Shown here: positions 4,426 to 7,691 of the stretch, piece by piece | How the letters are laid out: each line of letters opens with the position of its first letter | Numbering within the stretch: the stretch's first letter is position 1 | Assembly (NCBI GenBank): GCA_023666885.1 | Contig: JAMPBB010000010.1 | Coordinates: forward strand, 1 to 38,087 | Reading direction: 5' to 3' | Source of the DNA: Muribaculaceae bacterium | GTDB lineage: Bacteria; Bacteroidota; Bacteroidia; Bacteroidales; Muribaculaceae | Length of the DNA stretch: 38,087 bases | Made by a program: the position numbers and the translations under genes | The notes under the pieces: generated by a model | Databases searched by the model: none | Told to the model about the DNA's origin: nothing | Seen by the model: the letters and a program-made list of their open reading frames with translations, nothing else

Positions 4426-4433
4426 CAAAGATA
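4426..4433 (-). promoter_or_regulatory. -7 box upstream of the NhaC gene
   Basis: The minus strand reads TATCTTTG, a full TAnnTTTG match, 20 bases above the antiporter ATG. No TTTG is found at the usual spacing. The identical octamer precedes the GH20 and PBP1 genes in this window, which supports it as a real promoter element. Confidence 0.5.
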
Positions 4434-4458
4434 AGCATTTTGTGTCAATAATGAAGAG

Positions 4459-4490
4459 GCGTCCTGCCACAAGTGTTTGTGGCGGGACGC
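4459..4490 (-). terminator. Hairpin after the glutaminase-like gene
   Basis: Twelve-base arms (GCGTCCTGCCAC and GTGGCGGGACGC on the plus strand) with one non-Watson-Crick position and an 8-nt loop. It lies about 50 bases past the glutaminase-like stop and just upstream of the antiporter promoter. The T-run is poor (CTCTTCATTATT on the minus strand), so its efficiency is uncertain. Confidence 0.5.
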
Positions 4491-4542
4491 GCTCAATAGT
4501 TGTGAATATAGTAAAGTGAAATGAAGGTAAAGGGAAAGAATA

Positions 4543-5505
4543 TCAATCAATTACGATATTTGCGCTACCAAAGGCGCTTATATCCAAACGCCTCATGATG
4601 CTCGCTATGGCGCGGGCTGCTTTAACCGGTACTCCGGCGCGGTTCAAGGCCGGTGATGCCGCAGCTATGGCCATGACGCCGGGTATCACGCCTACTATGG
4701 CTCCGCCTTCGCCCGATATTGCCGGCAGTCCTGCAAGTACGTTCCATGGTACAGTCATCTTCTTGCTTGGGCCTTTTGCGGCCATCATGCCTACAATGCT
4801 CTGTGATATCTTGCCGTCAAATACCTCTTGCCGGGTTACGGGGTTTACGCCGTCGGCGGCTATGGTAGCGCCCATGGTGGCTAACTGTACAGGGGTGGCC
4901 TGTAGCGCCATGAGCTTGGCTGTAAGGTCTATGGCTATAGGCGCATTGTCATACAGATAGTAACCTGTATCAGTGAGCACATTCTCTACATTGGCGGCAG
5001 CAGCAGCCTCCACCTGCTTCTTGTAGAAGGTGTCGGACATCACGGGATCATCGCCCATCATGGCTTCAATGCATCCTTCTATAATGCCGTACTTGCCTTC
5101 AGGATCGCCCGTAGGCTCAACGGCGCTCACCGCACGTATGATATGGGCGCTCATGCCGGCCTGACGCATAGTGGCTTTGCGTGCCTTCTTGCTGTCAGGG
5201 GCGCATGTGCCGTTTGCGCATGCGCAGTCCATCTTGCCGCTTTTCTTTACAAGCTCCTCTGCGCTTCCGAGCTGACCTAACAGCTGTATGTGTACCGGAA
5301 TAGTAGCTATACGGCCTATTATAAACGGTGTACGGGCATCGCCCTGTTCTATCACGCGTCCATCAGTGGTTACCACGCTTATTCCGAAATTAGCGGCCGG
5401 TGTATCCACGCGAGGATTTACTTCACCATCGGTTACGCCTTTCATCTCTTCATATGCGGCCGCTACGGCAGCCTCGATATCACTGAATTTGATTTTCCTA
5501 TCCAT
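4543..5505 (-). CDS. Glutaminase-fold protein lacking the Ser-Lys catalytic residues
   Basis: A 320-residue homologue of GlsA-type glutaminases (serine beta-lactamase-like fold). The C-terminal half fits the family well: Y-Y-L-Y near residue 182, the T-P-V-Q-L-A-T-M-G helix, and L-P-A-I-S-G-E-G-G-A-I-V-G near 260-272. The active-site element F-S-x-Q-S-I-S-K is instead F-I-I-G-R-I-A-T (61-68), so the nucleophilic Ser is Arg65 and the general-base Lys is Thr68. The N-A-G-A substrate loop appears as I-E-G-C (142-145). A short insertion carries C94-A-C96 and C101. There is no signal peptide, so it is probably cytoplasmic. Hydrolysis of glutamine by the known mechanism is unlikely; a binding, regulatory or changed catalytic role is inference. 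It sits alone between two hairpins. Confidence 0.8.
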   Translation of the reverse strand: MDRKIKFSDIEAAVAAAYEEMKGVTDGEVNPRVDTPAANFGISVVTTDGRVIEQGDARTPFIIGRIATIPVHIQLLGQLGSAEELVKKSGKMDCACANGTCAPDSKKARKATMRQAGMSAHIIRAVSAVEPTGDPEGKYGIIEGCIEAMMGDDPVMSDTFYKKQVEAAAAANVENVLTDTGYYLYDNAPIAIDLTAKLMALQATPVQLATMGATIAADGVNPVTRQEVFDGKISQSIVGMMAAKGPSKKMTVPWNVLAGLPAISGEGGAIVGVIPGVMAIAAASPALNRAGVPVKAARAIASIMRRLDISAFGSANIVID

Positions 5506-5542
5506 AGGTATGTATAAGTTTTTTAAGTTTCATATTATGCTT

Positions 5543-5580
5543 ATAAAACAAGGCGCACACATGAAAGTTAGTGCACCTTG
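5543..5580 (-). terminator. Intrinsic terminator of the porin gene
   Basis: On the minus strand the stem CAAGGTGCAC pairs with GTGCGCCTTG (one G-U pair) and is followed at once by TTTTATAA. It starts 18 bases past the porin stop. Confidence 0.8.
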
Positions 5581-5597
5581 CAATATTTAACATACCG

Positions 5598-6878
5598 TCA
5601 GAAACTGAACTTGAGCATACCCATTATGCGGTTGGCTCGCCCTAACTCGCCGTTGAGATCCTTACGATTGCCGTGAATGTATTCTATACCGGCCTGAAGG
5701 TTACGTACCACTTCATAGAATCCTGATACGGTGATGTAACGTCCGTAGCGGTAAGTGTCGGCACTCATGTAGCCCGTGCCGAGCAGACGCGCCTGACTGT
5801 AGGCGCCCGATATGAATAGTGACGGAGTGAAGTCAACGCGTGCGCCTATCTCATAATTGTACATGCGTGGAGCCTCCATGCGGCCCGGGGTCTGGCTGTA
5901 TACAAGGTCGAACCCATGTCCGCTCAGGTCATTGACATACTGTCCGTAGCCGCGTCCATATGCGCCCTGGAAGTAAGCTCTTACAGCCGATGTTATGCCA
6001 CATGTGCCGCTGAGCTGGGCACCCCATCCTGTCTTGAAGCGGTTTTTGCCGCTTACAAGGTCACGGTACGACATGTTGCGCAGTAGAGCCGACAGGCGTA
6101 CATGGCTGTTGCCGCCGTCCCATGCATATTGTATATTGACCGGTATGTCAGGTACACGCTGGCTTATCTTCTGCACCGTAGCACCGGTAGTGGACGATAC
6201 TTGCGGCACTTCCACCGAAGCCGCTACCCGGAAGCCTTGACCGAATGTGCGGGCATAACGAAGGAGTATATTATTGCAGAAAAACTCGCCTGCCGGTCCT
6301 TGGTCGTCAATGACGGGTGTACCGGCTGAACCGTCAACGAAAGTGCTTCGTGTCAAACCGGCTGTTACATTGCCCATGCTTACATACGCTTGCTTGAGTT
6401 TCAATCCGTAGCCTGTGGCTCCGTTGCCGCTGAAGTTGGTCTGGATATACATCTGGTAATAGCCGAACCGGCTGTTATGCCCCACAAGTTGGAGCAGTAT
6501 GGTGGAGTGATTGGCGGTTCCGTCAAAGGCCGAGCGCTGAGCCGGGTCGTTAGGCACAGGTATGTCATAGCAGTAGAATGTTGAACCTTTGTCAATGGAG
6601 CCGTCAAAGTCATACTGCATGGTGCCCTTTACATAGCCGCCTATACCGAATGCCACTTTGCCCTCGCGGTCAAAGAATAGGAAGCGAGGCGCGTTAGGGT
6701 CGGAATGGTGCAGATCGGTACGGTTATACAGTACCGCTATCAGATCCTGAGCCTTGTCAGGATTTCCTGTTACCACTATGGCGTTCTGCGGTACGTAGAG
6801 TGAGTCCGGAGCCTCTGCAGCACTTGCATATGTAGATGAGGCTGCCAATAAGGCCGTGATGAGAAGGTGATGTTTCAT
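5598..6878 (-). CDS. DcaP-like outer-membrane porin
   Basis: A 426-residue beta-barrel protein. A signal peptide (MKHHLLITALLAASSTYASA) is followed by a short periplasmic region with the A-I-V-V-T-G-N-P-D-K-A-Q-D-L-I block and F-L-F-F-D-R-E-G-K-V-A-F-G-I-G-G. Both resemble the DcaP-type porins I know from Bacteroidetes. Alternating hydrophobic strands then run to a final aromatic residue (L-K-F-S-F), the usual barrel end signal recognised by BamA. It likely allows diffusion of small or anionic solutes across the outer membrane; the substrate is not readable. I see no recognisable promoter in the short gap upstream, which also carries the lipoprotein terminator. Its own terminator follows the stop. 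Confidence 0.75.
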   Translation of the reverse strand: MKHHLLITALLAASSTYASAAEAPDSLYVPQNAIVVTGNPDKAQDLIAVLYNRTDLHHSDPNAPRFLFFDREGKVAFGIGGYVKGTMQYDFDGSIDKGSTFYCYDIPVPNDPAQRSAFDGTANHSTILLQLVGHNSRFGYYQMYIQTNFSGNGATGYGLKLKQAYVSMGNVTAGLTRSTFVDGSAGTPVIDDQGPAGEFFCNNILLRYARTFGQGFRVAASVEVPQVSSTTGATVQKISQRVPDIPVNIQYAWDGGNSHVRLSALLRNMSYRDLVSGKNRFKTGWGAQLSGTCGITSAVRAYFQGAYGRGYGQYVNDLSGHGFDLVYSQTPGRMEAPRMYNYEIGARVDFTPSLFISGAYSQARLLGTGYMSADTYRYGRYITVSGFYEVVRNLQAGIEYIHGNRKDLNGELGRANRIMGMLKFSF

Positions 6879-7008: not shown

Positions 7009-7572
7009 TCAGTTGAACACGTTCTTAAGTTTGTCCTTGGCCTCATCAGCTTTTTCCTTGGCTTTGTCAGCAGCCTTATCGGCGGCATCGCTTATCTTTT
7101 CCTTAGCAGCGTCAGCCTTTTCCTTGGCGGCATCTTTGGCTTGTCCTACGGCATCGCTTACGGCTTCCTTGCCTTCGTTTACCTTGTCGGCGGCTGCATC
7201 TTTAATCTCTCCGGCTTTGTCGGCGGCTGCATCGGCAATACTGTCGGCTGCATTACCTATGGCACCGGGCACCTGTGACAGGGCGCTCTTAACTGATTCG
7301 AATGTGCTCTTAAGGGTAGGGGCCTTTGAGTCGATAACCGGCTCGATCTTGTCCATATATTTACGGGCTTCATCCATCTTGCCCTCGCTTATCAGCTGCT
7401 GTACATATACCTTGGCCTGCTCCACGTATGCGCGGGTGCTGTCAGGGTTGGTACTGTTTTCAATCTTGTCAGCGAGGTTCTCTTCGCTGCGCTCTGCTTT
7501 CTCAGCTGAGGTAGAGCATGAAGCCATGGATATGAATCCGGCTGCCGCAATGATAAAAAGAAGTTTCTTCAT
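7009..7572 (-). CDS. Lipoprotein with seven tandem 11-residue helical repeats (LEA-like)
   Basis: A 187-residue protein starting at the ATG at 7572. An upstream in-frame codon at 7629 is rejected because it would bury the signal sequence. A lipoprotein signal peptide (MKKLLFIIAAAGFISMAS) ends at C19. Residues 22-100 are a charged, probably helical spacer. Residues 111-187 split exactly into seven 11-residue units rich in Ala, Lys, Asp and Glu, for example E-I-K-D-A-A-A-D-K-V-N and Q-A-K-D-A-A-K-E-K-A-D, and end flush with the C-terminus. Such hendecads form long amphipathic helices as in group-3 LEA proteins and apolipoproteins. It is probably lipid-anchored in the envelope. A role in stress protection or membrane association is inference. 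It is monocistronic with a strong terminator. Confidence 0.82.
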   Translation of the reverse strand: MKKLLFIIAAAGFISMASCSTSAEKAERSEENLADKIENSTNPDSTRAYVEQAKVYVQQLISEGKMDEARKYMDKIEPVIDSKAPTLKSTFESVKSALSQVPGAIGNAADSIADAAADKAGEIKDAAADKVNEGKEAVSDAVGQAKDAAKEKADAAKEKISDAADKAADKAKEKADEAKDKLKNVFN

Positions 7573-7691
7573 GTCAGTTGGGTTTTTATAAAATGAATAT
7601 TCTGTGTAAGCGCGTGTGACACAATGCACACATATTCTTAAAACTCAAATGACAGCGGAATGGTTGAACGGTAGAATGTTAAAAAACAATG

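Follow-up and report, generated by a model that had tools for sequence, protein, structure and literature searches.

A clade of glutaminase relatives in the Muribaculaceae without the glutaminase active site: a possible family of anion-binding sensors or new enzymes

A gene of a Muribaculaceae bacterium encodes a protein that is recognizable as a relative of glutaminases and lacks the residues of their active site, which raises the question of what such a protein is for. The gene lies in a stretch of DNA of 38,087 nucleotides that was analyzed in full (the window), at positions 4543..5505 on the minus strand. It is an intact open reading frame of 320 codons, with the ATG start at 5505 and the stop included in the interval; the plus strand of 4543-5505 is interrupted by stops in the same frame. 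An earlier note on this DNA had the coordinates and the intact frame of 320 codons right, as the reading frame and its translation agree, but not the strand. The encoded protein (the query) matches the Pfam glutaminase family PF04960 with 109 bits (E = 3.3e-31) and belongs to it by the curated cut-off of 27 bits. The match spans residues 37-312 and profile positions 15-286 of 286, so that the likeness to GlsA, previously noticed for the C-terminal half, is clear and covers most of the length. The nearest solved relative is E. coli YbaS (1u60; residues 12-312, E = 7.2e-22). Against narrower profiles the scores fall short: 152.9 bits for NCBIfam PRK12356 (glutaminase A; cut-off 395) and 96 bits for the TIGR03814 equivalog (cut-off 255.4). 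An Rfam scan of the window gave no match.

To compare active sites, we used eight residues of YbaS (S66, K69, N117, E161, N168, Y192, Y244 and V262), which we take to represent the site as seen in glutaminase structures. The query has R, T, S, Q, A, T, K and E at these positions and thus keeps none of the eight. The assignment was read from four MAFFT settings, all in agreement, and an hhalign profile-profile comparison, with its alignment read by eye, places the same residues at the Ser, Lys and Asn sites. The Ser-x-x-Lys dyad of serine-dependent glutaminases (EC 3.5.1.2) is replaced by R-I-A-T (codons 65-68, 5302..5313, minus strand), and the loss of the catalytic Ser and Lys claimed by the earlier note is thereby confirmed. 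The other residues expected of EC 3.5.1.2 (Asn117, Glu161, Asn168, Tyr192, Tyr244 and Val262) are likewise absent. Asn is indeed lost too, at S119, but the N-A-G-A motif corresponds to S-A-H-I (codons 119-122, 5140..5151, minus strand; R124 follows at 5134-5136) and not to I-E-G-C at residues 142-145, a placement that both MAFFT and hhalign rule out. The first phmmer alignment put N-A-G-A near Q115, again not at 142. A shifted alignment hiding the Ser and Lys can be dismissed as well, given the concordance of the four MAFFT settings with hhalign and the lack of any S-x-x-K motif in the whole query protein. Active-site loss is therefore wider than was first stated, affecting eight aligned sites and not Ser, Lys and Asn alone.

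Next, we asked whether this loss is peculiar to one gene. Among 297 genomes of the same family, 118 have a match. Sorted by identity to the query, the genes form two classes: class D (38-53% identity) in 75 genomes, the window's included, and class C (30-36%, plus one split gene) in 51 genomes; the query itself is at most 53% identical to any other class D gene found. Sequences were fetched for 74 class D genes and for 26 class C genes, the latter from roughly 54 places, and all of these genes are open frames. One class D protein is a duplicate (L033 equals L051), and L033 was left out of the counts over 75 genes, while one alignment holds 76 class D rows. All 27 members of set A1 match PF04960 at E 0.001 or better.

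The two classes differ sharply in their active sites. Of the octet, class D genes (n = 75) keep none (6 genes), one (30), two (23) or three (16) residues, and never more. Tyr244 and Val262 occur in 0/75, Glu161 in one and Asn117 in two. At the Tyr244 site the query reads K-K-M (codons 248-250, 4756..4764, minus strand), the residue at 248 being H, K or R in 73/75 class D genes and Tyr in 25/26 class C genes (one unread). The Val262 site holds Glu in the query (codon 266, 4708..4710, minus strand), mostly aromatic residues in class D (F in 58 and Y in 11 of 75) and V in 26/26 class C sequences. The class C octet is complete in 26/26, save that one unread residue at Tyr244. Among 35 further relatives from the order and phylum searches, some of them also class C (L172-L174 were left out of this reading), 34 keep all eight residues and one (L170) keeps seven.

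Might class D proteins still act as glutaminases or related amidases through other residues? The fold family is clear, and Ser and Lys occur together in 13/75 class D genes, all of them among the 74 relatives of the query and at unshifted positions. However, all 13 lack Asn117, Glu161, Tyr244 and Val262 and so do not restore the active site, and the query retains 0/8 residues. The profile scores point the same way: the best E-values among 27 class D members are 3.3e-62 (PRK12356) and 2.7e-46 (TIGR03814), whereas one class C protein reaches 3.4e-134 (446.6 bits) and 332.3 bits, respectively. We regard continued glutaminase or amidase activity as very improbable for the class, even if residual hydrolysis of another substrate is conceivable in the 13 proteins that keep both Ser and Lys. 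Judged by their sequences, class D proteins very probably do not split glutamine. The idea that Arg65 and Thr68 might themselves be conserved did not hold: R occupies the Ser site in 3/75 and T the Lys site in 2/75, and the two coincide only in the query. On a class D tree from which the eight sites and the loop described below were excluded, 13 changes (losses or regains) are needed for Ser66, 13 for Lys69 and eight for S-x-x-K. Many Ser- and Lys-site changes thus postdate the origin of the clade.

Phylogenetic analysis places class D in a single clade (SH-aLRT 100) in a quick tree of 88 rows, comprising 52/75 class D and 22/46 class C rows thinned by identity. The stem of the clade is long (1.35 changes per column). 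Class D groups with YbaS-type proteins of the same order at SH-aLRT 100; its nesting inside them has weaker support (93), and a long stem is open to misplacement. No score at the class D level (at least 422 bits) was found outside the window's family in 393 genomes of the order, 395 of the class and 395 of the phylum, samples that overlap and hold few members of the window's family. Plasmid records gave 40 matches, all below 60% identity (26-33% among the 8 matches listed), and carriage as phage cargo was set aside, with no relative found in the viral collection. Sequence comparison supports well that class D, which these samples showed in no family but the window's, has lost the glutaminase active site; a YbaS-type acid glutaminase is its probable ancestor.

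Loss of catalytic residues may mean that a gene is on its way out. In favor of decay, the query sits on a long branch (0.87 in the class D tree, where end branches have a median of 0.21; 0.72 compared with 0.35 in the 88-row tree), and presence is patchy (75/297 genomes). Yet 75/75 frames are intact, and median dN/dS is 0.096 over 35 class D pairs, compared with 0.103 over 71 class C pairs. These values (NG86, own script; pairs with dS 0.1-2 and more than 65% identity, which share branches) describe close class D pairs, the query being too distant from any other gene to be included. Within the class, the query breaks only one of 49 columns conserved in the other members (rank 45 of 75 by breaks), and all ten class-specific conserved residues are present in it. 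Decay is thus hardly credible, and the view of the earlier note that this is not simple decay stands. The shared loss in 75 intact genes, with close pairs under purifying selection, exceeds chance. With catalytic residues lost, the gene conserved and purifying selection acting in close pairs, class D has the marks of a pseudoenzyme. That dozens of related bacteria keep the altered protein intact suggests a new job.

What has taken the place of the old site? The lid segment with its tyrosine (YbaS 28-30) is deleted in 75/75 class D proteins, so the lid tyrosine expected of EC 3.5.1.2 is absent; we assume that YbaS Tyr29 is the counterpart of Tyr249 in human GLS, because both lie equally far from the catalytic Ser and by a sequence motif. 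The activation loop is replaced by a stretch rich in Cys and Lys (codons 86-120, 5146..5250, minus strand; C94, C96 and C101 in the query). This stretch makes up 8.4% of the length and holds 194/251 class D cysteines (Cys content 9.9%, compared with 0.27% elsewhere); the class C stretch has one Cys in total across 26 sequences. At least two cysteines are present in 67/75 class D proteins, and common patterns are CC or CxC (60 of 75), CxC (54), CxCxC (25) and CxC followed by H or K (27). Cysteines cannot be needed everywhere, since eight proteins have fewer than two and six of the 75 have none. Loop length ranges from 13 to 28 residues.

Charge has changed as well. We scanned for columns with at most 20% basic residues in class C and at least 80% in class D (and the reverse for losses). 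Six columns turned basic (32, 121, 124, 244, 248 and 249), five of which (121, 124, 244, 248 and 249) belong to the segments around the NAGA motif and Tyr244: 121 is within the motif, 124 follows it, and 248 is the Tyr244 site itself. The change reaches beyond the old site, because four columns (7, 77, 179 and 183) went from basic to non-basic and the net charge of the whole protein rose (median -1 in class D vs -8 in class C). Counting seven pocket sites gives a starker picture (five or six basic in 68/75 class D, one in 26/26 class C, five in the query), but these sites were chosen after the alignment was seen, and the column scan is therefore the fairer evidence. Three polar positions are nearly or fully invariant: R or K at 124 (75/75), D218 (75/75) and D230 (76/76 rows, one of them a duplicate), the last found also in 17/28 catalytic-type rows.

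Human glutaminase shows what the replaced parts may once have done. Published accounts describe deprotonation of Ser286 by Lys289 and locking-in of the substrate by the activation loop and the lid tyrosine (PMC10912226), assign roles to Ser286, Lys289, Glu381, Asn388, Tyr414 and Tyr466 (PMC10912226, PMC13204110) and report that a Tyr466 mutant binds glutamine without hydrolysing it (PMC10912226). According to the same accounts, the activation loop of GLS/GAC and GLS2 includes Arg317 to Glu325 (PMC10912226, PMC13204110). The query shares the domain with GLS/GAC and GLS2, and Ser286, Lys289 and Tyr466 are absent at its matching sites. For this comparison YbaS Tyr244 was equated with human GAC Tyr466; human numbers were assigned to YbaS residues by position and not from a printed alignment. 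The stretch replaced in class D corresponds to the one that, in GLS, holds the substrate in place and contacts phosphate or inhibitors. Compared with YbaS, to which they are related over most of their length (PRK12356, PF04960, 1u60), class D proteins keep few active-site residues and neither the lid tyrosine nor the activation loop; their Cys/Lys loop and basic replacements are new.

Whereas the loss of the active site can be read from the alignments, the present job of class D is something we infer. The reading we favor, though we hold it with a little less than even confidence, is that class D represents a conserved pseudo-glutaminase derived from YbaS that serves as a cytosolic anion-binding sensor or regulator with a metal- or thiol-responsive Cys loop. 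According to this reading, the glutaminase fold would be retained. The former glutamine pocket would now be basic and bind an anionic ligand under the control of the Cys loop, which would lie above the pocket and respond to metal or thiols; pocket and loop are both placed here by alignment to glutaminases. The protein would no longer be a glutaminase but a cytosolic sensor or regulator. We favor it on account of the basic residues clustered at the old site and of the loop beside it, which contains most of the cysteines. A somewhat different formulation leaves the role wider: within one family of gut-type Bacteroidales, a new protein family may have arisen from an acid glutaminase as the glutamine pocket turned into a basic site for anions and the activation loop into a metal or redox switch rich in Cys, and it may work as a sensor or a new enzyme with no need of a catalytic glutaminase in the cell; this we put forward tentatively.

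The main rivals of the sensor reading are a new enzyme and metal handling. In the first case, the fold would have been kept and the serine chemistry lost, and a new site (the Cys loop, a metal, or R124/D218/D230) would catalyze another reaction. The strong conservation of the polar residues at 124, 218 and 230, the cysteines in the loop and a selection as strong as in catalytic-type relatives are consistent with this. On the other hand, six of 75 proteins are without any loop Cys, length variation of the kind seen in the loop is unusual for a catalytic element, and no neighboring gene names a pathway for class D as a whole; a new enzyme is accordingly unlikely in our estimation. In the second case, the Cys/His/Lys loop would bind or pass on a metal such as Zn or Cu, with the glutaminase fold as no more than a scaffold. 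The CxC-based patterns of the loop would suit such a protein, but R124 and D218 are conserved even where the loop has no Cys, and no metal transport gene was seen in the 13 neighbor clusters read by eye. We find metal handling distinctly doubtful.

A different kind of role would be that of a regulatory pseudo-subunit that joins a catalytic glutaminase of its own cell in mixed tetramers. Glutaminases form conserved tetramers (PMC8130709). The genome that contains the window (2.17 Mb in 89 contigs, 86% complete) does have a second PF04960 gene with the full active-site octet, on contig 60 (L171; 386 bits). Moreover, class C co-occurs with class D more often than expected, the 22 genomes with both being 22/75 class D genomes compared with 29/222 others (Fisher p 0.002, from genome lists transcribed by hand). 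However, in 37/74 class D genomes no second PF04960 gene was found at E 1e-10, and 18 of these are at least 95% complete, by completeness values likewise transcribed by hand. Class D is therefore no obligate partner of a second family member; in the 37 carriers that do have a second gene, active sites were read for a part. Overall, a role in mixed tetramers appears improbable. The plant protein PDX1.2 of vitamin B6 synthesis is likewise a conserved paralogue without catalysis, and it is described as a regulator of its own pathway, unlike class D, which often has no second family member in the cell. We found no pseudo-glutaminase family of this kind in the literature, searched at the level of titles and beginnings of abstracts, with most subscription journals outside its scope.

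Genomic context was compared over 75 class D loci (L099 left out, L033 kept). The neighborhood varies between loci. The commonest neighbor is a porin-like cluster, present in 22/75 loci and, in 18, located directly upstream on the same strand. In the window it is represented by a porin-like outer-membrane gene (DcaP / Porin_2) at 5598..6878, minus strand (PF19577, 5.4e-9; PF02530, 1.1e-8; DcaP-like structure 6eus, 1.4e-9). The stretch between it and the class D gene (5525..5597, minus strand) contains a terminator-like hairpin with a T run (-23 kcal/mol, z -3.9) that a consensus scan did not report. Such hairpins occur in 7/17 porin-to-class D gaps (17 of the 18 gaps were scanned), the window's included, and two of the seven are weak. 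An operon with a fixed partner is hence not what we see, with a porin-like neighbor in just 22/75 loci and a terminator-like hairpin in 7/17 gaps. The porin link may be inherited, because class C genes have a member of this cluster nearby in seven loci as well; the porin-like gene beside one class C gene (L117) has no Pfam match at 1e-5 and is so named because it clusters with that of the window. In the window, a stretch downstream of the class D gene (4430..4520, minus strand) contains a strong hairpin (-27.7 kcal/mol, z -7.3) that has no T run behind it and was not counted as a terminator. The NhaC-like gene of the window clusters with no other class D neighbor.

A role in nitrogen metabolism, raised as a possibility by the earlier note, receives a weak link from this context: glutamate dehydrogenase lies directly downstream in 5/75 class D loci, but all five belong to a single genus (g3), and the name is Pfam-confirmed for one. 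YbaS/GlsA acid glutaminase is described as the partner of GadB/GadC in glutamine-dependent acid resistance, and a gadB/gadC setting of the glutaminase gene is known for Bacteroides (PMC6250119 and PMC8082179, the latter for Bacteroides). It is class C, not class D, that shares this setting: in 12/25 family loci the class C gene is flanked by a gadB-like gene for a pyridoxal-dependent decarboxylase and a gadC-like one for an amino-acid permease (neighbors named by Pfam from one example each, L132 left out), and the gadB-like cluster was found near class D in 0/75 loci.

Class D may well be labeled 'glutaminase' by general annotation, as the query scores above the Pfam cut-off. Estimates of glutamine, ammonia and GABA turnover in gut communities that rely on gene counts would then be off for class D carriers. 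Class D would also be a clear natural example of enzyme re-use: it has a single origin, a long stem, many later changes at the Ser and Lys positions, and a new Cys loop exactly where its parent has the control loop.

Several other arrangements were observed. In seven loci (L110, L111, L112, L117, L120, L127 and L134), genes for an MFS transporter and an asparaginase come next after a class C gene (Pfam names from L110), and five of the seven have a divergent porin-like gene; this is perhaps a locus for the use of amide amino acids, apart from the gadB/gadC setting. Some class D genes (for example L056, L064, L068, L083 and L089) come after genes for a Crp-like regulator and an SNF-type sodium symporter, and a small divergent lipoprotein-like gene lies in between (names by sequence reading). 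In the window, a helical protein is encoded at 7009-7629 on the minus strand; its apolipoprotein-like and lipoprotein matches are weak, all below curated cut-offs. The region 12453-37984 carries housekeeping genes, including those for UvrA, DnaN, Dfp, ribonucleotide reductase and DnaA, and dnaA lies about 30 kb from the pseudo-glutaminase gene.
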